Positions 1 through 11,066 of a stretch of 11,066 bases of DNA are shown piece after piece; the stretch's first letter is position 1; every line of letters starts with the position of its first letter. Location of the stretch: contig PLEU01000136.1 of assembly GCA_003136515.1 (NCBI GenBank), forward strand, positions 12,670-23,735, in the 5' to 3' direction. The translations under genes and the position numbers were made by a program. The notes under the pieces are model-generated. The model made no database searches. It was not told the origin of the DNA and saw only the letters and a program-made list of their open reading frames with translations. Origin of the DNA: Spartobacteria bacterium (GTDB taxonomy: Bacteria > Verrucomicrobiota > Verrucomicrobiae > Chthoniobacterales > UBA6821).

Positions 1-444
1 CACGGTCTTGCGGAGGCCATGCGTCTGCCGAAGTCGATTCTGAGCCTCCTCGTCCTAGGCGGAGGGGTTTCTGCAATCCTGATCGCACTCTCCATGGAGC
101 TTATTCCCAGCACACTGATTTATCCGCTCATTGTGGATGGAAAACCACTTAATTTGATGGCATTACCGCAATATGTGCCGATTACGGTGGCACTCACACT
201 CATGATTGGCGCGGTGACGGCTGTTGCCGGGATGATCCTGCTCGGAGGAATGCCTCGACTCAATAATCCAATGTTTGCGTGGGACCTCTTCGAGAAGGGG
301 GCCTCTCGCAGTTTCTTCATCGCCGTCGAGGCCAACGACAGTAAATTCAAGACAGCCGTGGTTACAGAACTGCTGCAGGGAGTGGGTGCCCTTGATCTCG
401 TCGCCATCCACGAGGAGACCTCTGAATCAGCCAACCGGGAATAA
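1..444 (+). CDS. actD: ActD, ACIII membrane subunit (DUF3341), 5' truncated by window edge
   Basis: ActD is a membrane subunit of Alternative Complex III, which oxidises quinol and passes electrons to a c-type cytochrome or directly to an oxidase; ActD itself binds no cofactor. The frame is open from base 1 and begins HGLAEAM, which matches the family's conserved stretch before the first membrane helix (usually preceded by TPFPV). The ATG at 19 is therefore an internal Met and the true start lies upstream. Visible parts are TM1 (about residues 13-33 counted from base 1), a periplasmic loop with YPLIVDGKPLN, TM2 (about 60-83), and a soluble C-terminal tail with the family pattern FFIAVEAND...F. 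The stop is followed by actE three bases later. actA, actB and actC are expected upstream of the window. Identity is confident from the family pattern and from actE and actF directly downstream. Confidence 0.9.
   Translation, partial: HGLAEAMRLPKSILSLLVLGGGVSAILIALSMELIPSTLIYPLIVDGKPLNLMALPQYVPITVALTLMIGAVTAVAGMILLGGMPRLNNPMFAWDLFEKGASRSFFIAVEANDSKFKTAVVTELLQGVGALDLVAIHEETSESANRE
437..440 (+). promoter_or_regulatory. Candidate ribosome binding site of actE
   Basis: GGGA lies seven bases before the ATG at 448, inside the last codons of actD. It is modest, but is one of only two recognisable Shine-Dalgarno-like sites in the operon. It supports the start at 448. Confidence 0.45.
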
Positions 445-447
445 CTT

Positions 448-1176
448 ATGGTACGCTATTTCCTTCTTCTGCTTATCTTTGTGACGCTCTTGGTTGTCGG
501 TGTGGCCGGGTTGCGCAATTACTCCTTCCTGAGCCACAAGAGCAAGCGTCCACCGATTGAACTCTTTCCAGACATGGTGCGGCAGGACAAAGTCAAGGCG
601 CAGGCTCCAAGCGAATTTTTTGCCGACGGGCGCGGAGCCCGTGAACCGATCGAGGGTACGGTGCCGATGGGATACACCCAGCCAACCGCTCTGGCAGTAT
701 CCACCAATGGAGCTGTCATGGGAGGTGCTTACGAAGAAGTGATCTTCGCAGGGAAGGAAGATTATGCCAATACCGGCAAGGATGGCACGAACTGGGGGAA
801 TGGGTTGCCTTTTACAGCCACGCTTGCCACCTTGGAGAGGGGTCATGAACGTTATCAGATCCAATGTGCCGTTTGTCACGGTGCCACCGGACAGGGCAAC
901 GGGATCACCACCAAATATGGTCTCGTGGGCGTTGCCAATTTTCAGCAGCAGCGCCTGCGCGACATGGATGACGGGGAAATTTACAACACCTTAGTCAATG
1001 GGAAGAACACCATGCTCGGCTACGGTTCGGTCATTCAGGTTCCTGACCGTTGGGCCATCATTGCCTATATCCGCGCCCTCCAGCGCGCCCAGAATGCCAC
1101 CATCGAAGATGTTCCAGCCGATCAGCGCGCAGCGCTTCTGGGGACGAATCCAGCCACCACTCCCGCATCACCATGA
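448..1176 (+). CDS. actE: ActE, mono-haem cytochrome c subunit of ACIII
   Basis: ActE is the single-haem c-type cytochrome subunit of ACIII on the periplasmic face, thought to be an exit point for electrons leaving the multi-haem ActA/ActB part. The 242-residue protein starts with one hydrophobic helix (about residues 4-21) that is a membrane anchor or signal. Family landmarks follow: IELFPDMVRQDKVKAQ (about 37-52), EPIEGTVP (66-73), the haem c motif C140-A-V-C143-H144 and a candidate axial Met189 in NTMLGYGS, then DRWAIIAYIRALQRAQ near the end. No lipobox Cys is visible near the N-terminus, so a helix anchor is more likely than a lipid anchor. The gene starts three bases after actD, and its stop overlaps the actF start by four bases (ATGA). 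Assignment is firm from motif, length and gene order. Confidence 0.93.
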   Translation: MVRYFLLLLIFVTLLVVGVAGLRNYSFLSHKSKRPPIELFPDMVRQDKVKAQAPSEFFADGRGAREPIEGTVPMGYTQPTALAVSTNGAVMGGAYEEVIFAGKEDYANTGKDGTNWGNGLPFTATLATLERGHERYQIQCAVCHGATGQGNGITTKYGLVGVANFQQQRLRDMDDGEIYNTLVNGKNTMLGYGSVIQVPDRWAIIAYIRALQRAQNATIEDVPADQRAALLGTNPATTPASP

Positions 1177-2369
1177 GCGTTGAGAATACCTCGCTTCCAG
1201 CTCCGGAAACCTTCGACTACAAGCATGTCGGAGGACGTTTTGTAGGTATTTGTGGAGTGGCTGCAATATCACTTGTGCTGGCGTTGTTGCTGGGGATCCA
1301 TGACCCGAAGCAGTTCGCCTTTTCCTGGCTTTTTTCCGGATGCTTCTTCTTCACCCTGATGATCGGTTCTCTCTTCTGGGTGGTGATTCATCACGCAGTT
1401 GATTCAGCCTGGAGTGTAGGTATTCGTCGTCAGCTTGAAAATATCGCCTGCCTTCTGCCGCTTCTCGCGGTGCTGCTACTGCCTCTGATTCAGGTCGCCC
1501 CTCTGGTGTGGGGTTGGATGGCTGAATCGCCGGATCAGAATCACGAATTGGCCGAAAAAGTCCCTTATCTGACGATCAACTTCTTTGTGGTCAGAACATT
1601 TTTCTACTTCGCCCTCTTCGGCATCGTGGCCTATCTGCTTCGCCACAACTCACTCCGCCAGGATCTCGACGGGGCTGCGATTCACACGATCCGCAATCGC
1701 CGCGTGGCCTACTTTATCATTCCCGTAGGGGCGATCTCGCTCACGTTCTGGTCTTTCGACTGGATCATGGGATTGAACTATCGGTGGTACTCCACGATCT
1801 GGGGCATCTACATTTTCTCCGGTTGTGTGATCGGATCCCTCAGTCTGATCATCCTGCTCGCTAATGCGCTCCGTTCTGCCGGTTATCTGAAGACCGTCTT
1901 CACCGAACAGCACAACTACGCCCTCGGGAAATTTCTCCTAGCCTTCACCCTCTTCTGGTCCTGGATTGCCTTTGTTCAATATATGTTGATCTGGTATGCT
2001 AATATTCCCGAGGAAACGGCCTATTATACACTGCGCACCCACGGGTCATGGAAAATACTGGGTCTCCTGCTCGTGGTGGGGCACTTCCTTGTTCCCTTTG
2101 TACTACTCCTTTTCCGATCACCCAAATCCAGCGCAGGCTTTCTGGGGTTAGTTGCAGGGTGGGTGCTTGCGATGCATCTCCTAGACATTTACATCATGAT
2201 TCTTCCCGTGCTACATCCCAGAGGATTCCATCCGGCTGTTATGGATGTTGTTGCCGTGATTGCCATCGGGAGCACGCTCGCAGCCGTTTTTCTGAAACGG
2301 CTTGGCGATTCCCCTCTCTGGCCAGCGCGTGACCCACGTCTGGCGGAAGCTGTCAACTATATCGACTGA
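1173..2369 (+). CDS. actF: ActF, NrfD/PsrC-like membrane subunit of ACIII
   Basis: ActF is one of two NrfD-like polytopic subunits of ACIII (the paralogue of ActC). In known ACIII structures quinol is oxidised at ActC, while ActF lies in the membrane domain and may take part in proton movement. The 398-residue protein has about ten hydrophobic segments. Diagnostic ActF stretches are WVVIHHAVDSAWSV (about residues 69-82), TFWSFDWIMGLNYRWYSTIW (about 190-209), LGKFLLAFTLFWSWIAFVQY (about 250-269) followed by MLIWYANIPEET, and FRSPKS near the last helices. The start at 1173 is chosen because it forms the ATGA overlap with actE and gives the normal N-terminus; the frame stays open upstream to an ATG at 1050, but that would overlap actE by 127 bases. 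No Shine-Dalgarno precedes 1173, so translation is probably coupled to actE. Confidence 0.93.
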   Translation: MSVENTSLPAPETFDYKHVGGRFVGICGVAAISLVLALLLGIHDPKQFAFSWLFSGCFFFTLMIGSLFWVVIHHAVDSAWSVGIRRQLENIACLLPLLAVLLLPLIQVAPLVWGWMAESPDQNHELAEKVPYLTINFFVVRTFFYFALFGIVAYLLRHNSLRQDLDGAAIHTIRNRRVAYFIIPVGAISLTFWSFDWIMGLNYRWYSTIWGIYIFSGCVIGSLSLIILLANALRSAGYLKTVFTEQHNYALGKFLLAFTLFWSWIAFVQYMLIWYANIPEETAYYTLRTHGSWKILGLLLVVGHFLVPFVLLLFRSPKSSAGFLGLVAGWVLAMHLLDIYIMILPVLHPRGFHPAVMDVVAVIAIGSTLAAVFLKRLGDSPLWPARDPRLAEAVNYID

Positions 2370-2379
2370 TACCGATATC

Positions 2380-2766
2380 ATGAGCGACCACCACTCCCAC
2401 CCTCTCGCAGAGCCCAAGACGAATTCGGGATTTCCCTTCGTGATGCTCCTTGGAATCTTTTCCTTGATACTTCTTCTCGTAGTCGGGGGGCTTTTGCTTG
2501 GCCGAAGCGACACTGCAACCGAGGACGAGGATTCAGCGCGATCTGCCGTGCGAATCAAAAATCTGGCAGAGCTTCAGGCGGCCGATACTACACAGCTCAC
2601 CACTTACGGCTGGGTTAATCAGGCCAAGGGGATTGTTCACATTCCAATCGACCGGGCCATGGAATTAGTGCTGCCATCACTGAACGCCCATTCCGAACCA
2701 TCGTTGGGTTCATCAGCCACACCTGCTCCGGCCACACAGATGGCACCCACTGTTCCCAAGCCATGA
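2380..2766 (+). CDS. Small one-TM protein of unrecognised family between ACIII and cbb3-like genes
   Basis: I do not recognise a named family. The 128-residue product has a His-containing cytoplasmic start (MSDHHSHPL), one membrane helix (about residues 21-40), an acidic patch (TEDEDS, about 47-52), then a periplasmic stretch ELQAADTTQL...YGWVNQAKGIVHIPIDRAMEL (about 64-99) and a Pro/Ala/Thr-rich tail. The YGWV...G-I-x-IPIDRAMEL pattern resembles short hypothetical proteins I recall from oxidase and copper-delivery loci of Verrucomicrobiota and Acidobacteriota; that is memory, not a search. There is no Cys, so it is neither a Sco-type copper protein nor a cytochrome. By position after ActF it could be the equivalent of the small one-TM ActG of Rhodothermus, but homology is not established. 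The ATG at 2380 is preferred over the in-frame ATG at 2302, which would overlap actF by 68 bases; 2380 is ten bases after the actF stop. Its stop overlaps the next start by ATGA. Confidence 0.8.
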   Translation: MSDHHSHPLAEPKTNSGFPFVMLLGIFSLILLLVVGGLLLGRSDTATEDEDSARSAVRIKNLAELQAADTTQLTTYGWVNQAKGIVHIPIDRAMELVLPSLNAHSEPSLGSSATPAPATQMAPTVPKP

Positions 2767-4217
2767 GCGCAACCATCGATTCCCTGCATCACTCCCGGAC
2801 TTCCCTGCATGATGATGGGGCTGACACCTTTTCTATTGATGAATCCGTACGTCTGCCAGTGCTGGCTCTCTTCGGGAATGCCATCCATTGGCTTGTGGTG
2901 GCTGTGCTGATTTCTGCGGTTATTGCGATCAAACTCATCGTGCCTGGGTTTCTCAATTTCAGCTGGGCGAATTTTCTTAGTTATGGGCGACTTGCTCCTA
3001 TTGCCCGCGACTTGTTCCTGTACGGATGGGCCTCACAGGCGGCACTTGCTTCCGGGATCTGGCTTGCCGCCCGCCTTGCCGGACGTCCCCTTGCGAGCAC
3101 CCCCCAGAGAAGAGTGCTTCTGCACACGCTTCTGATTAGTGCCACGGTCCTTTGGAATCTTGGAGTGGTGCTGGGATCATTGGCTATCTTTGCAGGATAC
3201 ACGACTGGAGTGGAGTGGCTCGAATATCCTGGATGGGCATCAGCGACGCTCTTTCTATCCTTCCTGCTGATAGGCATCTGGGCGGTTCTGCTTTTCGATC
3301 GCAGAAGCAACGAGGATCCCGAAGTGGCTCAATGGTATCTGGTCGCCGGGTTTTGTTCCTTTCCATGGATCTACGGAACGGCCAACTTGCTTCTGGTGTG
3401 GAAACCGCTTCCTGCTCCGTCGCAGGGAGTCGTGCAGGCTTGGTTTAGCGGAAGCTTCCTCTCACTCTGGCTCCTACCTGTGGCCCTAGCAGCCCTTTAT
3501 GCTATGATACCGAGGGCGCTGGGTTCGCCTATAAATCGTGGAAGTCTGGCTCCGCTCGCTTTCTGGTCTGTTCTTTTTCTGGGTGGCTGGAATGGTATCC
3601 AACGCCTAATAGGGGGTCCTGTTCCTGCCTGGATGACATCCATCGGAGTCGTATCGAGTGTGCTCTTCCTCATACCCATCATGATTATCAGTATTAATCT
3701 CCTTGGAATCGATTTTGGTAAAAATCCAAGGGTGGGCAGGAACGTGCCATTGCGTTTCCTTATCCTCGGCCTCTTTGCCCTCATTACGCTTGGCATCATC
3801 GGCGCCATCTCCTCCCTTCCCACGATTAGCGCAGCGCTCCATTTTACTGGTGTGTCCGAGGCTCAGACACAGCTCTGGATTCTTGGAGCCGTCACCTTCC
3901 CTCTTTTCGGAGTGCTCTATGAAGGATTGCCTCGGTTAATGGGTCGTGAGTGTTGGTCAGAGAAACTTTCCGAACGCCACTACTGGCTGACCCTTGTCGG
4001 GTTTTGGCTCCTTATTGGAATGTTGGTTCTGGAGGGGCTCTTCACAGGCCTAGCCTTAGTAGATCCGGGCGTTACATTCCTCAACGTGGCCTCCTATGCC
4101 TATCCCTTCCGGTTCATAGAAGTGGTCGCCCAGTTTCTCCTGCTAGCTGGAACGCTGATGCTGGGATTGAATATAACACGCGCCTTTGCCGGCGACTACC
4201 TATTCCCGAAGCGCTAA
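2763..4217 (+). CDS. CcoN-like (cbb3 oxidase subunit I) protein lacking all haem and copper ligands
   Basis: This is a 484-residue, 12-TM homologue of the catalytic subunit of cbb3 cytochrome oxidase (haem b, haem b3, CuB). It aligns without gaps to the usual CcoN blocks, with every ligand changed: the low-spin haem His of GRLRPLH is Ala81 (GRLAPIA); the CuB His of VQWWYGH is Gly230 (VQAWFSG); the CuB pair in WAGPHH is Gln280-Arg281 (WNGIQR); the b3 and b histidines in HYTDWTIGHVH are Gln368 and Gln370 (HFTGVSEAQTQ). The Tyr cross-linked to a CuB ligand (PVYSY) is Gly260. Surrounding residues are kept (GRL, VQ.W, FW, H360, PRL, H406), and there is no stop or frameshift. Only seven His remain (9, 10, 16, 42, 121, 360, 406), none in a ligand position. 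It should bind none of the normal cofactors and cannot reduce O2 or NO by the known mechanism. It is probably a membrane scaffold for the following cytochromes. Overlap with the upstream gene is ATGA; ccoO-like follows four bases later. Automatic annotation would call it ccoN or coxA. Confidence 0.88.
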   Translation: MSATIDSLHHSRTSLHDDGADTFSIDESVRLPVLALFGNAIHWLVVAVLISAVIAIKLIVPGFLNFSWANFLSYGRLAPIARDLFLYGWASQAALASGIWLAARLAGRPLASTPQRRVLLHTLLISATVLWNLGVVLGSLAIFAGYTTGVEWLEYPGWASATLFLSFLLIGIWAVLLFDRRSNEDPEVAQWYLVAGFCSFPWIYGTANLLLVWKPLPAPSQGVVQAWFSGSFLSLWLLPVALAALYAMIPRALGSPINRGSLAPLAFWSVLFLGGWNGIQRLIGGPVPAWMTSIGVVSSVLFLIPIMIISINLLGIDFGKNPRVGRNVPLRFLILGLFALITLGIIGAISSLPTISAALHFTGVSEAQTQLWILGAVTFPLFGVLYEGLPRLMGRECWSEKLSERHYWLTLVGFWLLIGMLVLEGLFTGLALVDPGVTFLNVASYAYPFRFIEVVAQFLLLAGTLMLGLNITRAFAGDYLFPKR

Positions 4218-4221
4218 CCCT

Positions 4222-4869
4222 ATGCACCGCCTTCCGACACTGCTTAGCGGCATTTTTCTCGTTTTCCTTACGTCGTGGCTGGGATTGGTAGCCTATCCGG
4301 CCCTTCAGCTTGGTCGTCTTACTCCGGTGAATGATGCCGATACCGGGGGCACACTTCCTCCACTTTACAACGGATCGGCCGTTGCGGGGCAGAGGGTATA
4401 TGCCTCGGAAGGGTGCGTGTATTGCCACAGTCAGCAGGTGCGGCAGACGAGTGTCACTCATTCTGATATCGAACGCGGATGGGGCCTTCGGCCCTCCGTA
4501 GCACGAGATTATCTGCGCGACAGCACCGCCTTCCTAGGATCAAGCAGGATTGGAGAGGATCTCTCGAATGTTGGCACACGTATTACCAATGCGGCGGCCT
4601 ACTACAAGGAACTTTATGCCCCAGAATCTGTTTCCATAGACGCCACGATGCCCTCTTACGGTGATCTTTTCAGAGTTCGCCCGATTCAAGGACAGCGATC
4701 CACGGAAGCGCTTGATTTACCTCCTGAGTTCGCACCAAAGCCTGGCTATGAAGTTGTGCCCACAACCGATGCCAAAAACCTAGTAGCGTATCTTCTTTCG
4801 CTGAAGCATGACTATGCGCTTCCGGAAGCTGATTCCGTCAAGAATAGCCCGGCAGCATCTTCCCATTAG
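4222..4869 (+). CDS. CcoO-like membrane-anchored mono-haem cytochrome c
   Basis: CcoO (FixO) is the single-haem subunit of cbb3 oxidase that sits on CcoN and passes electrons to its haem b. This 215-residue protein has one N-terminal membrane helix (about residues 6-26), then the family landmarks: EGC65-V-Y-C68-H69-SQQVR, an ERGWGLRPSVARDY region, RIGEDLSNVGTR (about 109-120), PESV and the candidate axial Met143 in ATMPSYGDLF, and a C-terminal NLVAYLLSLK. Length is normal for the family. The Met of the usual CHSQM is Gln71, a non-ligand change. The start at 4222 puts the helix close to the N-terminus and follows the CcoN-like stop by four bases; an in-frame ATG at 4186 would overlap by 32 bases. 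No strong Shine-Dalgarno is seen. Haem binding looks intact, yet the partner subunit has no haem b to receive the electron, so the acceptor must be something else. Confidence 0.88.
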   Translation: MHRLPTLLSGIFLVFLTSWLGLVAYPALQLGRLTPVNDADTGGTLPPLYNGSAVAGQRVYASEGCVYCHSQQVRQTSVTHSDIERGWGLRPSVARDYLRDSTAFLGSSRIGEDLSNVGTRITNAAAYYKELYAPESVSIDATMPSYGDLFRVRPIQGQRSTEALDLPPEFAPKPGYEVVPTTDAKNLVAYLLSLKHDYALPEADSVKNSPAASSH

Positions 4870-4883
4870 CTGAATATCGAGCC

Positions 4884-5567
4884 GTGAATCACGATCCCAC
4901 TACTCCAAACAAGCGACATCAGGACTCCAGCGAGCACTCCTTGAGTCGTCCGCTCTCACCTTGGCTGGTCGGAGCCTTCATTCTTGTGCTTCTATGGGGT
5001 GGTTTCTATCTCGCTTTCAACAGCGGCGGCTTCCGTCAGGATGTTTACGAAAGCGATGCGGTTAACTGGGCTGGTGGCGGTGCCAGTGCCGAGGCGCCAC
5101 CTGATCCGAAAGTTGTAGGCAAACGGCTCTATAGCCAGAACTGTGTGGTCTGCCATCAGGCCACTGGGCTTGGCGTGCCAGGACAGTTTCCGCCCCTTGC
5201 TGGGAGTGACTGGGTCAATTCAGATTCCATCCACGGTGACAACCACCTGGTGCTTCTTCTTCTCCACGGACATCAGGGGCCGATGAACGTTGAGGGGCAG
5301 ACTTATAACAACGCGATGCCCCAATGGAAGCAGCTTTCGGATGATCAGATTGCTTCAATCCTAACCTACATCCGCTCCGACTGGGGAAATAACGCGCCCG
5401 CGATCGACACTTCCTTCGTCACGCTGATGCGCAAGGAGAGTGAATCGCAGAGCGATCCCTGGACCCAGTCCGAATTGATGGCGATCCCCCGTGCCATGGA
5501 TACCTCAAAGGGTGCGGCACCTGCAGCGCCAGCGGCTTCCGCAGCACCCCCTGCCAAACAAAACTAG
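4884..5567 (+). CDS. Membrane-anchored mono-haem cytochrome c in the CcoP position
   Basis: This 227-residue cytochrome c has a short polar cytoplasmic N-terminus, one membrane helix (about residues 27-45), a linker, and one cytochrome c domain with C87-V-V-C90-H91 and the candidate axial Met145 in NNAMPQW, ending in SDDQIASILTYIRSDWG. The motif GLGVPGQFPPLAGSDWV is typical of c domains attached to oxidases. A Pro/Ala-rich tail (about 209-224) closes it. True CcoP carries two haem domains and an N-terminal helical hairpin, so this is at most a half-CcoP; it may equally be a cytochrome dedicated to the A1 oxidase downstream. The start codon is GTG at 4884, 14 bases after the upstream stop, with only a weak GAG before it; no in-frame ATG is available before the membrane helix. 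The stop is two bases before coxB. Confident as a cytochrome c; the partner is inferred. Confidence 0.88.
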   Translation: MNHDPTTPNKRHQDSSEHSLSRPLSPWLVGAFILVLLWGGFYLAFNSGGFRQDVYESDAVNWAGGGASAEAPPDPKVVGKRLYSQNCVVCHQATGLGVPGQFPPLAGSDWVNSDSIHGDNHLVLLLLHGHQGPMNVEGQTYNNAMPQWKQLSDDQIASILTYIRSDWGNNAPAIDTSFVTLMRKESESQSDPWTQSELMAIPRAMDTSKGAAPAAPAASAAPPAKQN

Positions 5568-5569
5568 AG

Positions 5570-6511
5570 ATGATTTCCGCGTTTACACACACCTCGATTA
5601 CCGCCCGCCGAGTCTTGTCCCGTTTGACAACCGCAGGGATTTTCCTGCTGTTTTTGTCAACGCAGGCTATGGCTGAGCAGCGGTCAGGAAATATCTACGG
5701 TCTTCCCCCTTGCGTGACCGTTAGCGGAGAGAGGATTGATTTCATATTCAAGATGATCTTCTGGTTGACCGCAGTGGTCTTTGTACTGGTTCAAGGTACC
5801 TACCTCGTATACTTGATCAAATATCGCTATCGCCCAGGGGTGAAGGCTCACTACAGCCACGGCAACAATACTCTTGAAATCGTCTGGACGACGCTTCCGA
5901 CGATCATCTTTCTGGCGCTCGCCATCTACAGCAACAGGGTATGGGATGAAATTCATATTCCTGCACCCAAGAATGCCCTGACCATTGATGTTTCCGCTTA
6001 CCAGTTTGGCTGGCAAATGCGCTACCCCGGTGTGAGCGGGGAGCTTTCACCTAGCGACGTGAAGGAGATTTCAATGAAGAATCCCTTTGGAACGGATTCC
6101 ACCGATGAAAGAACTGCCCAGGATGTAATTTCGCCCGAACTGGTGATTCCCGTTGGCCGCCCAGTGCATGTGCTGCTTCATTCCCGCGACGTGATCCATT
6201 CTTTTTATGTGCCTGAGTTTCGAATCTATCAGGATTGCGTTCCCGGGCGCACGATCGGTTGGGTCTGGTTTCAAGCAACACGGACTGGTGATTTCCAACT
6301 CGCCTGCAACCAACTCTGTGGCACGGGGCATTTCAACATGAAAGCCCCCATCCATGTGGTCTCCGAAGGGGAATTTCATGATTGGCTAAAAACTCGCCAA
6401 GATAAGAATGCAGCAACTGCCAAGGCGGCGGCTACTACTGCGGATAAAGCTTCAGGAGAGACCAGTCAGGGGGCTTCCTTGACCAGCGCCAAAACACCCA
6501 ATACACTGTAA
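5570..6511 (+). CDS. coxB: Cytochrome c oxidase subunit II with intact CuA site, no fused cytochrome c
   Basis: Subunit II takes electrons from cytochrome c at its CuA centre and passes them to haem a in CoxA. The 313-residue product has a signal peptide with probable cleavage after AMA (residue 35), two membrane helices (about 58-83 and 104-122), and a periplasmic cupredoxin domain. CuA ligands are His210 (DVIHSFYVPEF), Cys246, Cys250, His254 and Met257 in CNQLCGTGHFNM; Gln248 stands where most family members have Glu, whose backbone carbonyl binds copper. The electron-entry region reads YQFGWQMRY, with Phe146 at the site of the usual entry Trp. The last 40 residues are a Lys/Ala/Thr-rich tail without CxxCH, so this is not a caa3-type fusion, and electrons must arrive from a separate cytochrome c such as the two encoded upstream. 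The gene starts two bases after the preceding stop and ends three bases before coxA. Confidence 0.95.
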   Translation: MISAFTHTSITARRVLSRLTTAGIFLLFLSTQAMAEQRSGNIYGLPPCVTVSGERIDFIFKMIFWLTAVVFVLVQGTYLVYLIKYRYRPGVKAHYSHGNNTLEIVWTTLPTIIFLALAIYSNRVWDEIHIPAPKNALTIDVSAYQFGWQMRYPGVSGELSPSDVKEISMKNPFGTDSTDERTAQDVISPELVIPVGRPVHVLLHSRDVIHSFYVPEFRIYQDCVPGRTIGWVWFQATRTGDFQLACNQLCGTGHFNMKAPIHVVSEGEFHDWLKTRQDKNAATAKAAATTADKASGETSQGASLTSAKTPNTL

Positions 6512-6514
6512 GCG

Positions 6515-8317
6515 ATGAGTGCAACATTAACCCACACATCCCCCGCTACGGAGACGTTTCCGGACATTTCAGGCGGCAGTCATCATGAGGACCACGGACA
6601 TGGCCATGGCAAAAATGGGTTGATGCATTATATCTGGAATACGGATCACAAAATGATCGCGATGCAGTTCCTTTTCAGCGCAGCCTTTTTCCTAGCCCTT
6701 GGAGGATCGATGGCGATCGCCATGCGTTGGCAACTTGCTTTTCCGGGACATCCCATTCCAATTCTGGGACATCTTCTCCCTTCCACGGTTGTGAGTGATG
6801 ACGGCGCACTGATTCCCGGTGGATATAACATGCTTGTCACGATGCATGGAACGATCTTGGTGTTTTTCTTTGCCATGCCCGTACTCATCGGCGTCTTCGG
6901 AAACTTCCTGATACCTTTAAAAATCGGAGCTGGGGACATGGCCTTTCCCGCCGTGAATGAGGTCAGCTACTGGCTCTTTGCCCTGTCAGGAGTTCTGATT
7001 ACGGCCACTTTTTTTGCTCCTGGCGGGGCACCGGGTACGGGATGGACCGCCTATGCTCCCCTGAGCAGTGTCGCGGATTATAATCACACAAAATTGGGCC
7101 AGTCACTCTGGTGTGCTGCACTCTTTGTCAACGGACTCTCCTCTCTGACAGGTGCTGTGAATTATATCACGACTGTTATCACGATGAGGGCACCCGGCAT
7201 GACGATGTTTCGGATGCCGCTACCCGTCTGGGCTATCTTTGTAACTGCAATCCTCCTGATCTTTGCCATTCCCGTTCTGTCTGCCGCCGCCGCGCTTATT
7301 ATTTTCGATCTGAACTTTGGAACCAGTTTCTATGAGCCGGCAGGAGGGGGGCAGCCGATTCTCTGGCAGCACCTTTTTTGGTTTTTCGGACATCCTGAGG
7401 TTTATATCCTGATTCTTCCTGCGATGGGATTCACCTCGGAAATTCTTTCGGTTTTCTCGCGCAAGCCTGTTTTTGGTTACAAAGCCATGGTTTACGCAAT
7501 TTGTATACTGGGGCTCTTTGGATTCATCGTGTGGGGCCATCACATGTATGTCAGCGGCATGAATCTCACCTTGAGTGCGGCGTTCTCGGTATCCACCATG
7601 GTGATCGCGGTGCCAAGCGCCATCAAAACCTTCAACTGGATGGGCACTGTCTGGCGCGGATCAATACATTACACCGTGCCGATGGCCTTTGCAGTGGCCT
7701 TCGTCTCCATGTTTGTGATCGGAGGGCTGAGTGGGATCTTCATGGCGTCAACGCCAGTTGATCTCTTCGTCCATCACACTTATTTCATCGTAGCCCACTT
7801 CCATTATGTCCTTTTTGGCGGTTCTGTTTTCTCGATATTTGCAGCCATATATTTCTGGTATCCGAAGATGTCGGGCCGTATGTGGAACAATACACTCGGG
7901 TGGATACACTTTTGGATGACGCTCGTCTTTTTTAATCTGACTTTTTTTCCGATGCACAACCTCGGCCTTGCGGGAATGATGCGCCGCATTTCAGATCCGA
8001 CCGTCTATGACTGTCTGCGTCAGGTACAACCTCTTAATGTGGTCTGCACGATCGGGGCGATGGGGCTTGGCCTTTCAGCGCTGCCATTCTTCTTCAACAT
8101 GTTCTGGAGTCTAAAATACGGACCCAAGGCACCTGCAAATCCCTGGAATTCGACAACGCTTGAATGGACGGTTGAAAATCCTATTCAGCACGGAAACTTC
8201 CCCGTTACGCCGACGGTGTATCACGGTCCCTATGAATATAGTGTTCCTGGAATGGAGAAGGATTTTCTGCCACAGAACGAGAAGGCCCCCGCCCACGTGA
8301 CCCTAGAGGCCCACTAA
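6515..8317 (+). CDS. coxA: Cytochrome c oxidase subunit I, A1-type haem-copper oxidase
   Basis: This is the catalytic proton-pumping subunit that reduces O2 to water. All cofactor residues are present in the 600-residue protein: haem a ligands His111 (TMHGT) and His430, haem a3 ligand His428 (AHFHYV), CuB ligands His293, His342 and His343, and the cross-link Tyr297 in FGHPEVY. D-channel Asp141 (GDMAFP), Asn130 and Asn148 are present, Glu295 marks subtype A1, and K-channel Ser308 and Lys371 (SAIKTFNW) are present. Departures are His421 where the Mg-site Asp normally stands (VHHTYF instead of VHDTYF) and Glu149 in place of the second Asn of the NN pair. The N-terminus has a His-rich run (HHEDHGHGHG, about 23-32). 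There is no fused subunit III. It lies three bases after coxB and 20 bases before ctaA. The next coding start has a clear ribosome binding site. Confidence 0.97.
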   Translation: MSATLTHTSPATETFPDISGGSHHEDHGHGHGKNGLMHYIWNTDHKMIAMQFLFSAAFFLALGGSMAIAMRWQLAFPGHPIPILGHLLPSTVVSDDGALIPGGYNMLVTMHGTILVFFFAMPVLIGVFGNFLIPLKIGAGDMAFPAVNEVSYWLFALSGVLITATFFAPGGAPGTGWTAYAPLSSVADYNHTKLGQSLWCAALFVNGLSSLTGAVNYITTVITMRAPGMTMFRMPLPVWAIFVTAILLIFAIPVLSAAAALIIFDLNFGTSFYEPAGGGQPILWQHLFWFFGHPEVYILILPAMGFTSEILSVFSRKPVFGYKAMVYAICILGLFGFIVWGHHMYVSGMNLTLSAAFSVSTMVIAVPSAIKTFNWMGTVWRGSIHYTVPMAFAVAFVSMFVIGGLSGIFMASTPVDLFVHHTYFIVAHFHYVLFGGSVFSIFAAIYFWYPKMSGRMWNNTLGWIHFWMTLVFFNLTFFPMHNLGLAGMMRRISDPTVYDCLRQVQPLNVVCTIGAMGLGLSALPFFFNMFWSLKYGPKAPANPWNSTTLEWTVENPIQHGNFPVTPTVYHGPYEYSVPGMEKDFLPQNEKAPAHVTLEAH

Positions 8318-8337: not shown

Positions 8338-9414
8338 GTGGAAGGGAATATCACCAGGAGCAAGAATCAGGGGAGTGCTGAATCGATTAGCCAGACTTCC
8401 TTGACGCTGGTGCATCGCGTGGCTTTGGTGGCTGCTGTGGCCACATTCCTGCTCATTGTCGTGGGGGGGCTTGTCACCTCAAAAGGGGCTGGAATGTCGG
8501 TGCCAGATTGGCCGACAACTTATGGCTACAACATGTTTCTCTTCCCGTATTCAAAGTGGGTGGGTGGGATATTCTGGGAGCATTCCCATCGGCTGCTTGC
8601 GACCGGCATCGGGCTGATCACGATCCTTCTCGCCATCGTTACCTTTAGCGAAGATGCGCGCATCTGGGTTCGTTGGCTCGCCGTAGCTGCGGTGATCGGG
8701 GTTATTACTCAGGGGGTGCTCGGGGGACTGCGCGTCACCCTTTATAAGGATCAGATTGGGATATTTCATGCTCTTCTGGCACAAAGCTTTTTTGCCCTTC
8801 TTCTCGTGATGAGCGCTGTGACAGGACGTGGATTTCTTTCGCGTTCATGGTTCCGCGACAATGCAGCAGCCTCCCTCCGGTGGCTGGCGCTGGCAGGCCT
8901 GATCCTGACCTATTTCCAGTTGGCGATAGCGGCTACAATACGACATCAGCACATGCCGCTGGCGATTCCTGATTTCCCAACTTCCTATGGCCAACTCCTT
9001 CCGGACACGTCAGTCGCAGCCATCGAGCGGATCAATGCCGAGCGTATTCGGAACATGATAGCACCGGTGACAACGATACAGATTTATCTCCAACTCATCC
9101 ATCGTGCAGGAGCACTCGCGCTGATGCTCACGGTCGTTACATTTTCCATCCGTTCGGCTGAGATCACACCCATCGGTCACTGGTTACGGACTTGGAGCCT
9201 GATTTGGGTTGGGGGAATGCTGCTTCAGATTTTGCTGGGCGCCATCACGATCTGGACCAACAAGGCTGCTGATATTGCCACGGCACATATGGCACTCGGG
9301 GCACTTCTGACAGGGTTTACCGTCCTCCTTACATTTCGACTTTTCTGCGCGGCGCATGGAGCCCGAGCTAACGAGGGAGACTCCATAACCCTAACACACC
9401 CCTCCTACGCATGA
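8338..9414 (+). CDS. ctaA: Haem A synthase (CtaA/Cox15)
   Basis: CtaA oxidises the C8 methyl of haem O to a formyl group, giving haem A for CoxA. The 358-residue protein has eight predicted membrane helices arranged as two similar halves: VPDWPTTYG (55-63) is echoed by IPDFPTSYG (210-218). The four conserved histidines are His84 in WEHSHR with Glu81 before it, His144 (IFHALLAQ), His255 (LIHRAG) and His317 (TAHMALG). In the Bacillus enzyme the C-terminal pair holds the stable haem b and the N-terminal half is catalytic. The disulfide Cys pair of the Bacillus type is absent, since the only Cys is near residue 337. It starts with GTG behind a good ribosome binding site and overlaps ctaB by ATGA, consistent with cofactor supply made together with the oxidase. 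Confidence 0.95.
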   Translation: MEGNITRSKNQGSAESISQTSLTLVHRVALVAAVATFLLIVVGGLVTSKGAGMSVPDWPTTYGYNMFLFPYSKWVGGIFWEHSHRLLATGIGLITILLAIVTFSEDARIWVRWLAVAAVIGVITQGVLGGLRVTLYKDQIGIFHALLAQSFFALLLVMSAVTGRGFLSRSWFRDNAAASLRWLALAGLILTYFQLAIAATIRHQHMPLAIPDFPTSYGQLLPDTSVAAIERINAERIRNMIAPVTTIQIYLQLIHRAGALALMLTVVTFSIRSAEITPIGHWLRTWSLIWVGGMLLQILLGAITIWTNKAADIATAHMALGALLTGFTVLLTFRLFCAAHGARANEGDSITLTHPSYA

Positions 9415-10298
9415 ATGGATCCGATTCAATTGCTGTAAAGCCTGCCGGCCTTTTCTCCGATTTGATGGAGCTTTCCAAAGCAAGGCTCTCATTTCTGGTG
9501 CTGCTCACTACGCTTGTCGGATTCCTGCTCGGATGGAACGGCCCGATGGACTACAAGATTCTCTGCGCGACTCTTCTTGGTACGGCCCTGAGCGCCGCCG
9601 GGGCTTCCGCTCTCAACCAATGGCTGGAACGTGATTTGGATTTGCTCATGCCCAGAACCTCCGATCGTCCCCTCCCCGCGGGACGGATGCACCCTGCCGA
9701 TGCACTAATGTTCGGGCTTCTTTGCTGTGGCAGTGGAGTGTTGATACTGGCGCTGCTGGTGAACCCCCTCACAGCGACGCTCTCATTTCTGACGATCGTG
9801 ATCTATGCAGGTGTTTACACACCGCTAAAACGTGCCAGTGAACTGAATACGCTAATAGGAGCTATTCCCGGGGCGCTCCCCCCGCTGATTGGTTGGACGG
9901 CTGCAACCGGTACAATGGGTGACGAGGGGTGGATGCTTTTTCTCATCCTCTGGTTCTGGCAGATGCCACACTTCTTGGCGATATCGTGGCTCTATCGGGA
10001 TCAATATGCCGCTGCTGGATTCAGGATGCTCAGCACGCGTGATCCGGAGGGGTGGGCCACGGGATGGCATGCACTGATATACTCCATGGCGCTGCTGGCG
10101 ATTACCCTGATTCCAGGACTTCTTGGATTTGCCTCGCCGTACTACTTCTTTGTGGCATTGGCTCTGGGTGCAGTGATGGTCTTCCTCTCATGCGATCTCC
10201 TCAGAATCCGCGATGAATCGTCGGCCCGCCGCCTCTTTTTTGCTTCCATAATTTATTTGCCCCTTCTTTTGGGGGCGCTTATCGCTTTCGCCCGATGA
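9411..10298 (+). CDS. ctaB: Protohaem IX farnesyltransferase (haem O synthase)
   Basis: CtaB (CyoE, Cox10) adds a farnesyl group to protohaem, making haem O, the substrate of CtaA. It is a UbiA-type membrane prenyltransferase of 295 residues with about nine helices. The first allylic-diphosphate/Mg motif is N69-QWLERDLD-LLMPRTSDRPLPAGR, with Asp75, Asp77, Arg82 and Arg86; the second region is WFWQMPHFLAISWLYRDQY, with the following AAGFRML. YTPLKR and the G-A-x-PG-ALPPLIGW block are also typical. Glu73 stands for the first Asp of the motif, a common variant. The start at 9411 overlaps the ctaA stop (ATGA), and its own stop overlaps the next small gene in the same way. Haems O and A are needed only by the A1 oxidase here, since the CcoN-like protein has lost its haem ligands and cbb3 enzymes use haem b anyway. 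Confidence 0.96.
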   Translation: MNGSDSIAVKPAGLFSDLMELSKARLSFLVLLTTLVGFLLGWNGPMDYKILCATLLGTALSAAGASALNQWLERDLDLLMPRTSDRPLPAGRMHPADALMFGLLCCGSGVLILALLVNPLTATLSFLTIVIYAGVYTPLKRASELNTLIGAIPGALPPLIGWTAATGTMGDEGWMLFLILWFWQMPHFLAISWLYRDQYAAAGFRMLSTRDPEGWATGWHALIYSMALLAITLIPGLLGFASPYYFFVALALGAVMVFLSCDLLRIRDESSARRLFFASIIYLPLLLGALIAFAR

Positions 10299-10435
10299 TG
10301 CGATCGATCAAACACGATTCTAAGCGCCGTGCCTTGCAGTGGAAAATTCTTGCGGGGTTGGTTGCTTTTGCGCTCGCTCTTTGTGCTCTTGTCGTGGTGA
10401 TGATGTTGCGCCGTGGCCCGGCTGTCGCCTACTGA
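10295..10435 (+). CDS. 46-residue one-TM protein between ctaB and coxC
   Basis: A short frame starts ATGATG, giving an ATGA overlap with the ctaB stop, and ends TGA at 10433-10435, ten bases before coxC. The product has a basic N-terminus (MMRSIKHDSKRR), one membrane helix (about residues 16-38) and an LRRGPAVAY end. I do not recognise the family. It fits the pattern of tiny membrane proteins in oxidase operons, such as assembly factors or small structural subunits, and fills what would otherwise be the only gap of more than 20 bases in the operon. The exact overlap geometry, shared with four other junctions, and the clean basic-then-hydrophobic pattern make it probably real. The length is too small for certainty. 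It lacks Cys-x-x-x-Cys or Met/His copper motifs, so a copper chaperone role is not indicated. Confidence 0.65.
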   Translation: MMRSIKHDSKRRALQWKILAGLVAFALALCALVVVMMLRRGPAVAY

Positions 10436-10445
10436 TTTTTCGAAA

Positions 10446-11066
10446 ATGAACAACGCCGCCTTCAACAACGCTTCCCTCTTTCACGCGCCACCCGCCGTGA
10501 AGGAACCTTCCCAAACCCACGGTTTGACTCCTGCTGCCATTTGCAGACTTGGAACGGTCATTTTTCTCTGTTCTGAGGTGATGCTCTTTAGCGGGCTGAT
10601 AGGAACCTACATTGTGGTGCGTCAGTCAGGTGGCTTTTGGAACTGGCCCCCCAATTTCGGTGGTAGTGAACCTCTTCCTGCCATGCCAAAGCTCCTCACT
10701 GGCATCAACACGATCATCCTGATCAGCTCCAGTTTCGCATATCACTTCGCTGAAGTTCATGTGAAGAAAGGAAAATCGGGCGCATTCTTTATCCTGCTGG
10801 CCGCTATGTTGGGGGCCACATTCGTGGGACTTCAGTGCGTGGAGTGGACCCATCTCTACCACGAGGGCCTATGGTTCAATAAGGGTGGAGTATACGGTTC
10901 AACGTTCTTTGTTCTCACTGGTTTTCATGGTGCTCACGTTTGCGTCGGCGTCCTGCTTATTCTCTGGTGCTTTTTCCTTCAGGTGACACGGCGCAAGTTC
11001 ACCCCTCAGCGGCATGTGGCGCTCGAAAATGTCGGCCTTTACTGGCATTTCGTCGATGTGGTCTGG
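10446..11066 (+). CDS. coxC: Cytochrome c oxidase subunit III, 3' truncated by window edge
   Basis: Subunit III binds CoxA, stabilises turnover and helps proton uptake, and carries no metal. The frame opens with ATG at 10446 and runs without stop for 207 codons to the window end. After a polar N-terminus it shows helix one with Glu44 (FLCSEVMLFSGLIGTYI), the conserved acidic residue of the family that reacts with DCCD in other members. Further on are QCVEWTHLY (about 129-137), the GVYGSTFFVLTGFHGAHV block (about 147-164) and YWHFVDVVW at the edge, all classic subunit III signatures. Only the C-terminal end is missing, so the gene is nearly complete. No ribosome binding site is visible before the start, and there is no earlier in-frame ATG nearby. 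It follows the 46-residue gene by ten bases and is part of the same operon; subunit IV is expected next. Confidence 0.94.
   Translation, partial: MNNAAFNNASLFHAPPAVKEPSQTHGLTPAAICRLGTVIFLCSEVMLFSGLIGTYIVVRQSGGFWNWPPNFGGSEPLPAMPKLLTGINTIILISSSFAYHFAEVHVKKGKSGAFFILLAAMLGATFVGLQCVEWTHLYHEGLWFNKGGVYGSTFFVLTGFHGAHVCVGVLLILWCFFLQVTRRKFTPQRHVALENVGLYWHFVDVVW

Follow-up and report, generated by a model that had tools for sequence, protein, structure and literature searches.

A CcoN-like subunit without haem or copper ligands

The window analysed here is an 11,066-nt stretch of DNA from a Spartobacteria bacterium (assembly GCA_003136515.1, contig PLEU01000136.1, positions 12,670 to 23,735, forward strand). 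It carries genes of alternative complex III (ACIII), two mono-haem cytochromes resembling CcoO and CcoP (here O and P) and a CoxA-type oxidase (Table 1). Immediately before O lies the gene of a protein resembling CcoN, subunit I of cbb3 oxidases, which we call N. An initial annotation held that N has lost all six haem and copper histidines together with the active-site tyrosine.

Does N retain any ligand? N scores 126 bits against PF00115 and a weak 113.2 bits against TIGR00780, the ccoN equivalog of NCBIfam, which does not reach the cut-off of 583.15; full-ligand ACIII-linked N proteins have no equivalog scores to set beside this value. A phmmer search of solved structures matched five distinct sequences, all named cbb3 subunit I, with 9g6b (E 1.3e-16) and 3mk7 (E 4.1e-16) at the top, covering residues 40-474 of the query. 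The second is Pseudomonas stutzeri CcoN1, of which we take H60, H207, H257, H258, H345 and H347 to be the haem and CuB ligands and Y251 to be the cross-link tyrosine. With residue numbers of 3mk7 counted along the printed gapped alignment, these histidines fall on Ala81, Gly230, Gln280, Arg281, Gln368 and Gln370, and a MAFFT alignment with full-ligand relatives places the ligand columns identically. None of the six histidines of the haem b, haem b3 and CuB columns is present, exactly as the initial annotation had it. The tyrosine is lost as well, but not at Gly260 as proposed: that residue lies opposite Y237, part of the YSY motif, and it is Gly274 that occupies the Y251 column, where none of 78 lost rows has a tyrosine. 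The span first given, 3003-3872, covers residues 81-370 only of a gene that runs from 2763 to 4217.

The fold persists despite the loss of every ligand, a claim that the predicted structure bears out. The model is helical throughout, with a pLDDT (predicted local distance difference test) of 93.5, and residues 24-480 align with 3mk7 over 443 residues at 1.9 A, which gives N the fold of a haem-copper oxidase subunit I. The frame of 484 residues is intact, as also claimed, and 10 of 10 relatives from genomes have no stop within the match. The adjoining O exceeds the PF02433 cut-off and conserves its CXXCH. CcoP of cbb3 oxidases is di-haem, with two motifs, whereas P has one CXXCH, and this is also so in full-ligand loci.

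Nitric oxide (NO) reductase was considered as another identity. NorB keeps ligands for haem and non-haem iron, and in N the columns of the haem b, b3 and FeB histidines read A, G, Q, R, Q, Q; the NorB structures 3o0r and 4xyd also match N more weakly than CcoN does. As the loss affects the same ligand columns, we rejected NO reductase.

N is almost certainly devoid of oxidase catalysis. Judged by its sequence, it is a descendant of CcoN and, lacking the ligands, not a CcoN enzyme. It probably still works within the same complex.

Table 1. Genes and ligand columns in the window
Feature	Position	Strand	Basis
ActD of ACIII, 5' end cut by window	1..444	+	PF11821 97.5 bits
Mono-haem cytochrome c, ActE by position	448..1176	+	PF13442 43.7 bits; name from gene order
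400-aa protein, ActF by position	1167..2369	+	Gene order; conserved in relatives
hyp128, 128-aa conserved protein, one hydrophobic stretch by eye	2380..2766	+	No family at cut-off
N, ligand-free CcoN-like subunit, 484 aa	2763..4217	+	Open reading frame, PF00115, weak TIGR00780, model, fold match to 3mk7
Ala81, haem b His column (H60 of 3mk7)	3003..3005	+	phmmer and MAFFT alignments
Gly230, CuB His column (H207)	3450..3452	+	phmmer and MAFFT alignments
Gly274, cross-link Tyr column (Y251)	3582..3584	+	phmmer and MAFFT alignments
Gln280-Arg281, CuB His columns (H257, H258)	3600..3605	+	phmmer and MAFFT alignments
Gln368, haem b3 His column (H345)	3864..3866	+	phmmer and MAFFT alignments
Gln370, second haem b His column (H347)	3870..3872	+	phmmer and MAFFT alignments
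O, CcoO-like mono-haem cytochrome c, CXXCH intact	4222..4869	+	PF02433 55.2 bits
P, CcoP-like mono-haem cytochrome c, CXXCH intact	4884..5567	+	PF00034 50.2 bits
CoxB, oxidase subunit II	5570..6511	+	TIGR02866 152.5 bits, cut-off 147.7 exceeded
CoxA, subunit I of CoxA-type (aa3-like) oxidase	6515..8317	+	PF00115 497.8 bits
CtaA, haem A synthase	8338..9414	+	PF02628 106.3 bits
CtaB, haem O synthase	9411..10298	+	TIGR01473 280.5 bits, above cut-off
CoxC, oxidase subunit III, 3' end cut by window	10425..11066	+	NF050119 111 bits, below cut-off 190

Close relatives, selection and conserved columns

From 7998 candidates scored, 143 homologues of N were obtained. Among the 120 listed, two of which have a gap at one ligand column, 103 keep none of the six histidines, 12 keep one, two keep two, one keeps four (P0089, a metagenome protein) and two keep all six, a distribution beyond chance. 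Twelve close loci were recovered by scanning genome contigs, their records being labelled Spartobacteria (10), Chthoniobacterales (1) and Proteobacteria (1); no relative was found in a scan of viral contigs. As far as the contigs reach, the gene order of the close loci is actD, actE, actF, hyp128, N, O, P, coxB, coxA, ctaA, ctaB, coxC. The Proteobacteria metagenome-assembled genome, L010, has a Spartobacteria-like cluster and is possibly mislabelled or misbinned. CoxA of L006 is split across two frames (3671-5442), through either a sequencing error or a genuine break.

Is N still under selection? The ratio of nonsynonymous to synonymous substitution rates (dN/dS) is 0.067-0.183 in 26 pairs drawn from eight of the 12 close loci, and in the same pairs that of ActF is 0.041-0.180, with one pair undefined. 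Together with the conserved operon slot, these values uphold the selection that the initial annotation had suggested. They describe the relatives of the window gene rather than the gene itself, as a filter of 74% identity left the window, L006 and L007 in no pair; dN is also inflated where a frame takes in codons upstream of the start, as some do, and dS often exceeds 1. In most pairs N shows lower conservation than CoxA or ActF.

The pattern of kept and lost residues was read from 46 columns with a constancy of 95% or more among 48 full-ligand rows. All 13 rows of the window clade keep R76, R104, G145, E151, E154, W191, Y246, P250, L262, F267, W268, W276, G278, W290, P305, N312, Y386 and P390. 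Besides the ligands and the tyrosine, all 13 have lost R78, N83, Y187, G218, W226, T238, Y247, K251, S259, Y340, F407, R453 and G457. The features that are kept, fold and partners, are those that a scaffold needs, and the features that are lost are those that catalysis needs.

ACIII-linked loci across the phylum

How common is the loss? The Spartobacteria locus L001 belongs to genome G001. From the phylum of that genome 387 genomes were sampled, and 110 gave a match at 1e-10, other oxidases accounting for part of these. We retained the 87 matches at E 1e-60 or better from this search that were new and added the 12 close contig loci, giving 99 loci. N has all six histidines and the tyrosine in 28 of them (HHYHHHH over the seven columns) and at most three histidines in the other 71 (none in 28, one in 36, two in five, three in two); no locus among the 99 has four or five. 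The loss reported in the initial annotation is real and not an isolated case: it recurs, often in partial form, in 71 of 99 loci. L018 and L021 (HNSQRYH) retain both haem b histidines and lack the CuB and b3 set, so haem b binding is possible in these two; P0135 and P0136 show the same pattern, and all four may be haem-b-only intermediates.

Full and lost N share one slot, preceded by act genes and followed by O and P. ActF is present in 97 loci, O in 97 and P in 94, and the missing genes fall at contig ends, apart from P in two full-ligand loci (L134, L140). N lies inside the act cluster, as the gene of an ACIII accessory subunit would, judged by ActF in 97 of 99 loci and by a Pfam match to ActD in the window. 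Among aligned rows, the window included, the CXXCH of O is kept in 70/70 loss and 28/28 full rows and that of P in 69/69 and 26/26; Met145 of P is kept in 68/69 and 26/26. Every one of the 71 loss rows has an open frame (454-613 codons); in three, the locus ends within it.

Two sets of relatives stand apart. L102-L112 have full-ligand N-like proteins (one row truncated) and a CcoO-like gene, are not ACIII-linked, and in nine of 11 have an upstream frame with seven CXXCH. L121 encodes a ligand-poor N relative of 347 aa with O and P present, and no act genes were detected nearby.

Repeated loss of the ligands

Was the pocket emptied once or several times? In a 75-row mixture-model tree with the ligand columns blanked (52 lost and 23 full rows), five changes are needed and lost rows as one group are rejected (approximately unbiased test, p-AU 0.0016). 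A 57-row mixture-model tree with methanotroph rows added (38 lost, 19 full) again needs five changes and rejects one lost group (p-AU 0.0015); its rows were hand-picked. A quick 120-row LG tree needs three. L023 is nested among full-ligand rows in all three trees, and the QQGRHQQ, AHSSRRW and FEAADVQ rows stand with other lost rows in the LG tree and beside full-ligand rows in both mixture trees. Near-duplicate, truncated or odd rows were excluded throughout (L005, L008, L009, L012, L013, L014, L019, L108, L112, L121, L122), and 45 further rows were excluded from the 75-row tree, including the long branches L053, L063, L097 and L101. We read the trees as repeated loss because regain of seven residues is implausible. 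As several deep forks in the trees are open, we hold firmly to at least two or three losses; by parsimony, five would be counted.

Ligand-poor N in verrucomicrobial methanotrophs

N occurs in 12 of 13 genomes of the Methylacidiphilaceae, the family of G275. The methane/ammonia monooxygenase A family PF02461 was found in all nine genomes tested of the 13, including G018, which has no N. All 12 N rows, one of which ends before the last two ligand columns, have at most one histidine at the six columns, with signatures ADAAHQx or SESSHFV. P0121 (Methylacidimicrobium sp. AP8) is 100% identical to N of G275, P0132 (Methylacidiphilum kamchatkense Kam1) is 100% identical to N of G162, and P0134 (M. 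infernorum) reads SESSHFV; all three are cultured methanotrophs. In the seven loci fetched, act genes precede N in six, no ActD-F being detected in L168, and O and P followed by CoxA, CoxC and CoxB are found in all seven. The N match of G402 (L164 / L169) contains one stop, at the N-terminal end of the match; the 479 codons that follow form an open frame.

Could a second, genuine cbb3 oxidase be present? No ccoN match above 82 bits (cut-off 583) was found in the 13 methanotroph or 10 window-clade genomes; among control genomes six of 14 had a match, one above the cut-off. Other methanotroph frames gave weak partial ccoN matches of up to 45.7 bits, presumably other oxidases or NO reductases.

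These organisms have been credited with a cbb3 oxidase. The accessible parts of PMC8498564 and PMC10205796 list this type among the terminal oxidases of verrucomicrobial methanotrophs, and that of PMC11102522 describes aa3 and cbb3 genes adjoining ACIII in Methylacidiphilum caldifontis IT6. In that of PMC6688271, the ACIII genes of Kam1 are co-located with a cbb3-type oxidase, an arrangement taken there to be in keeping with a high affinity for O2 and with growth where O2 is low. By its predicted ligand columns, the cbb3 core credited to the methanotrophs has no place for haems or copper, and the link of the Kam1 oxidase to high O2 affinity, as given there, is undercut. The initial annotation had anticipated both errors: database names for N are cbb3-type subunit I, and a cbb3 oxidase is counted in these papers, so far as their accessible text goes. 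The reading of such genomes, in which databases and papers count ligand-poor N genes as cbb3 oxidases, is corrected here.

Association with a CoxA-type oxidase

If N does not reduce O2, is another oxidase at hand? A match to CoxA (TIGR02891) at E <= 1e-30 was found in 93 of 97 genomes (76/80 and 17/17 in the two sets), comprising 69 of 69 loss genomes searched and 24 of 28 full-ligand genomes. The four genomes without a match (G156, G011, G138, G238) all have full-ligand N (L041, L044, L069, L072), a difference with p 0.005, uncorrected for kinship and computed with 71 loss loci where 69 genomes were searched. Matches in G006 and G393 are split or partial only. A same-strand CoxA lies near N in 30 of 65 loss loci versus 1 of 26 full loci (Fisher p 5.6e-5, kinship uncorrected, eight short-contig loci dropped). 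Ligand loss goes with another oxidase at hand, in counts weakened by kinship and incomplete genomes.

A proposed role for N

Why keep an oxidase core that cannot act as one? The partner cytochromes and the operon, absent from the initial annotation, point to a likely role. We favour, as reasonably probable, the reading that N, an oxidase core no longer in service, persists as a membrane scaffold that holds the haems of O and P between ACIII and a CoxA-type oxidase; a scaffold or relay role as such seems likely to a similar degree. We infer the order of events, the physical assembly and the electron path as follows. The ancestor would have been a working C-type oxidase in one operon with ACIII and the mono-haem cytochromes O and P. 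With a CoxA-type oxidase already in the cell, the O2 chemistry of N would have become dispensable, and its haem and copper pocket would have decayed repeatedly in different lineages. N would be unable to bind haem b, haem b3 or CuB and would stay as a non-catalytic membrane subunit; its fold would have been retained because N still serves to anchor O and P to ACIII. Menaquinol would feed electrons into ACIII, from which they would travel over the c haems of the two cytochromes to the CoxA oxidase, whose coxBA genes lie just downstream in the window. There is about an even chance that in Verrucomicrobiota N was emptied several times independently and became a lasting platform free of cofactors, part of an ACIII-N-O-P-CoxA respirasome in which the haems of O and P serve as a built-in wire from one complex to the other. 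If so, the methanotroph cbb3 oxidase would not exist as an oxidase.

Several observations weigh against the scaffold proposal. The CoxA match exceeds the curated cut-off in 46 of 80 genomes of one set and in none of 17 of the other, so that 'aa3' is the nearest label rather than a proven type. Control genomes also have a CoxA match in eight of 14, four of them above the cut-off. The four genomes without CoxA form two near-kin pairs on the 120-row tree, and two are small (1.3 and 1.7 Mb); because the genomes are related, the CoxA counts are not independent events. No coxA lies near N in 35 of 65 loss loci, where an oxidase partner is unproven. Some lineages keep one to three histidines, and in two rows the haem b pair is complete, so not every loss is necessarily cofactor-free. 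Finally, dN of N exceeds that of ActF in 18 of 26 pairs, which fits a weaker-constrained scaffold and equally a slow decay.

Might the emptied pocket hold something else? Another cofactor or ion (a haem elsewhere, a quinone, an ion) could be bound through His42, Cys198, Asp83 and the basic residues at 280/281. The first three do not vary among the 13 window-clade rows, and a residue at 280 or 281, the former CuB positions, is basic in 53 of 71 loss rows from clades that lie apart in the mixture trees, which is not fully explained. Yet the new residues vary between separately lost clades, the basic residue may be a filler of space or charge, and the only invariant histidines are His42 and His406, the latter common to full-ligand ACIII-linked forms (30/30); we consider a new cofactor unlikely. 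Equally doubtful is an assembly or stability factor that matures O, P or the CoxA oxidase and stays outside the final complex. The constraint on N and the assembly genes ctaA and ctaB in the window-clade operon would suit such a factor, but the slot was inherited from a structural, catalytic subunit, O and P are retained alongside, and the loss loci with no coxA nearby count against it too.

Two further possibilities have very little probability. N could be a roleless, decaying remnant caught before its loss, for which its lower conservation than CoxA and ActF in most pairs would speak; this is disfavoured, as every one of the 26 pairs has a dN/dS far below 1, the 71 loss rows all have open frames and the G402 stop lies outside the open frame. 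Just as improbable is a still working oxidase whose displaced ligands were missed by the alignment. Overall similarity to CcoN is in its favour, but the structure alignment to 3mk7 extends over 443 residues at 1.9 A, the window clade offers two invariant histidines only, and all 13 of its rows have also lost the tyrosine, Arg78 and Arg453, the arginines presumably having propionate-side roles.

Relation to known systems

Compared with cbb3 CcoN (3mk7), N is without the six ligand histidines and the tyrosine, and P of the N loci has a single haem motif. Another close system is the ACIII-linked C-type oxidase of Verrucomicrobiota, represented by the full-ligand N of 28 of the 99 loci, which shares slot, O, P and tree family with lost N and, unlike it, keeps its ligands and rarely has coxA near. 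Adjacency of ACIII and oxidase genes is reported in the accessible part of PMC8498564, citing Refojo 2010. The scaffold proposed for N also resembles the ACIII-cytochrome oxidase supercomplex of Flavobacterium johnsoniae, in which ACIII is bound to a haem-copper oxidase. There, according to the accessible part of PMC8361435, contact with ACIII is through oxidase subunit III (Sun 2018), and the description in that part does not mention a dead CcoN-O-P module.

The same source, in the part available, defines the haem-copper family by subunit I homology with six conserved histidines. The N proteins are widespread, selected members of that family without the six. We found no description of a ligand-free haem-copper subunit I in the literature titles and abstract openings listed, a search that left subscription papers mostly uncovered, so that prior notice is possible. 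It seems that, on more than one occasion, the core of a respiratory enzyme took on a structural part; these cases amount to a natural experiment on the needs of a supercomplex beyond catalysis.

Neighbouring genes

The window CoxA scores 632 bits against TIGR02891, slightly below the cut-off of 670.75, and its translation contains GHPEVY, GHHM and AHFHY, which we take to be ligand motifs. No Pfam family matched the window ActF; in L133, ActF is split across two frames, again through a sequencing error or a genuine break. The small gene hyp128 is seen in 11 of the 12 close loci, the sole exception being L006, where the contig begins within N. Relatives of hyp128 were detected in 43 of 71 loss loci and 19 of 28 full-ligand loci.
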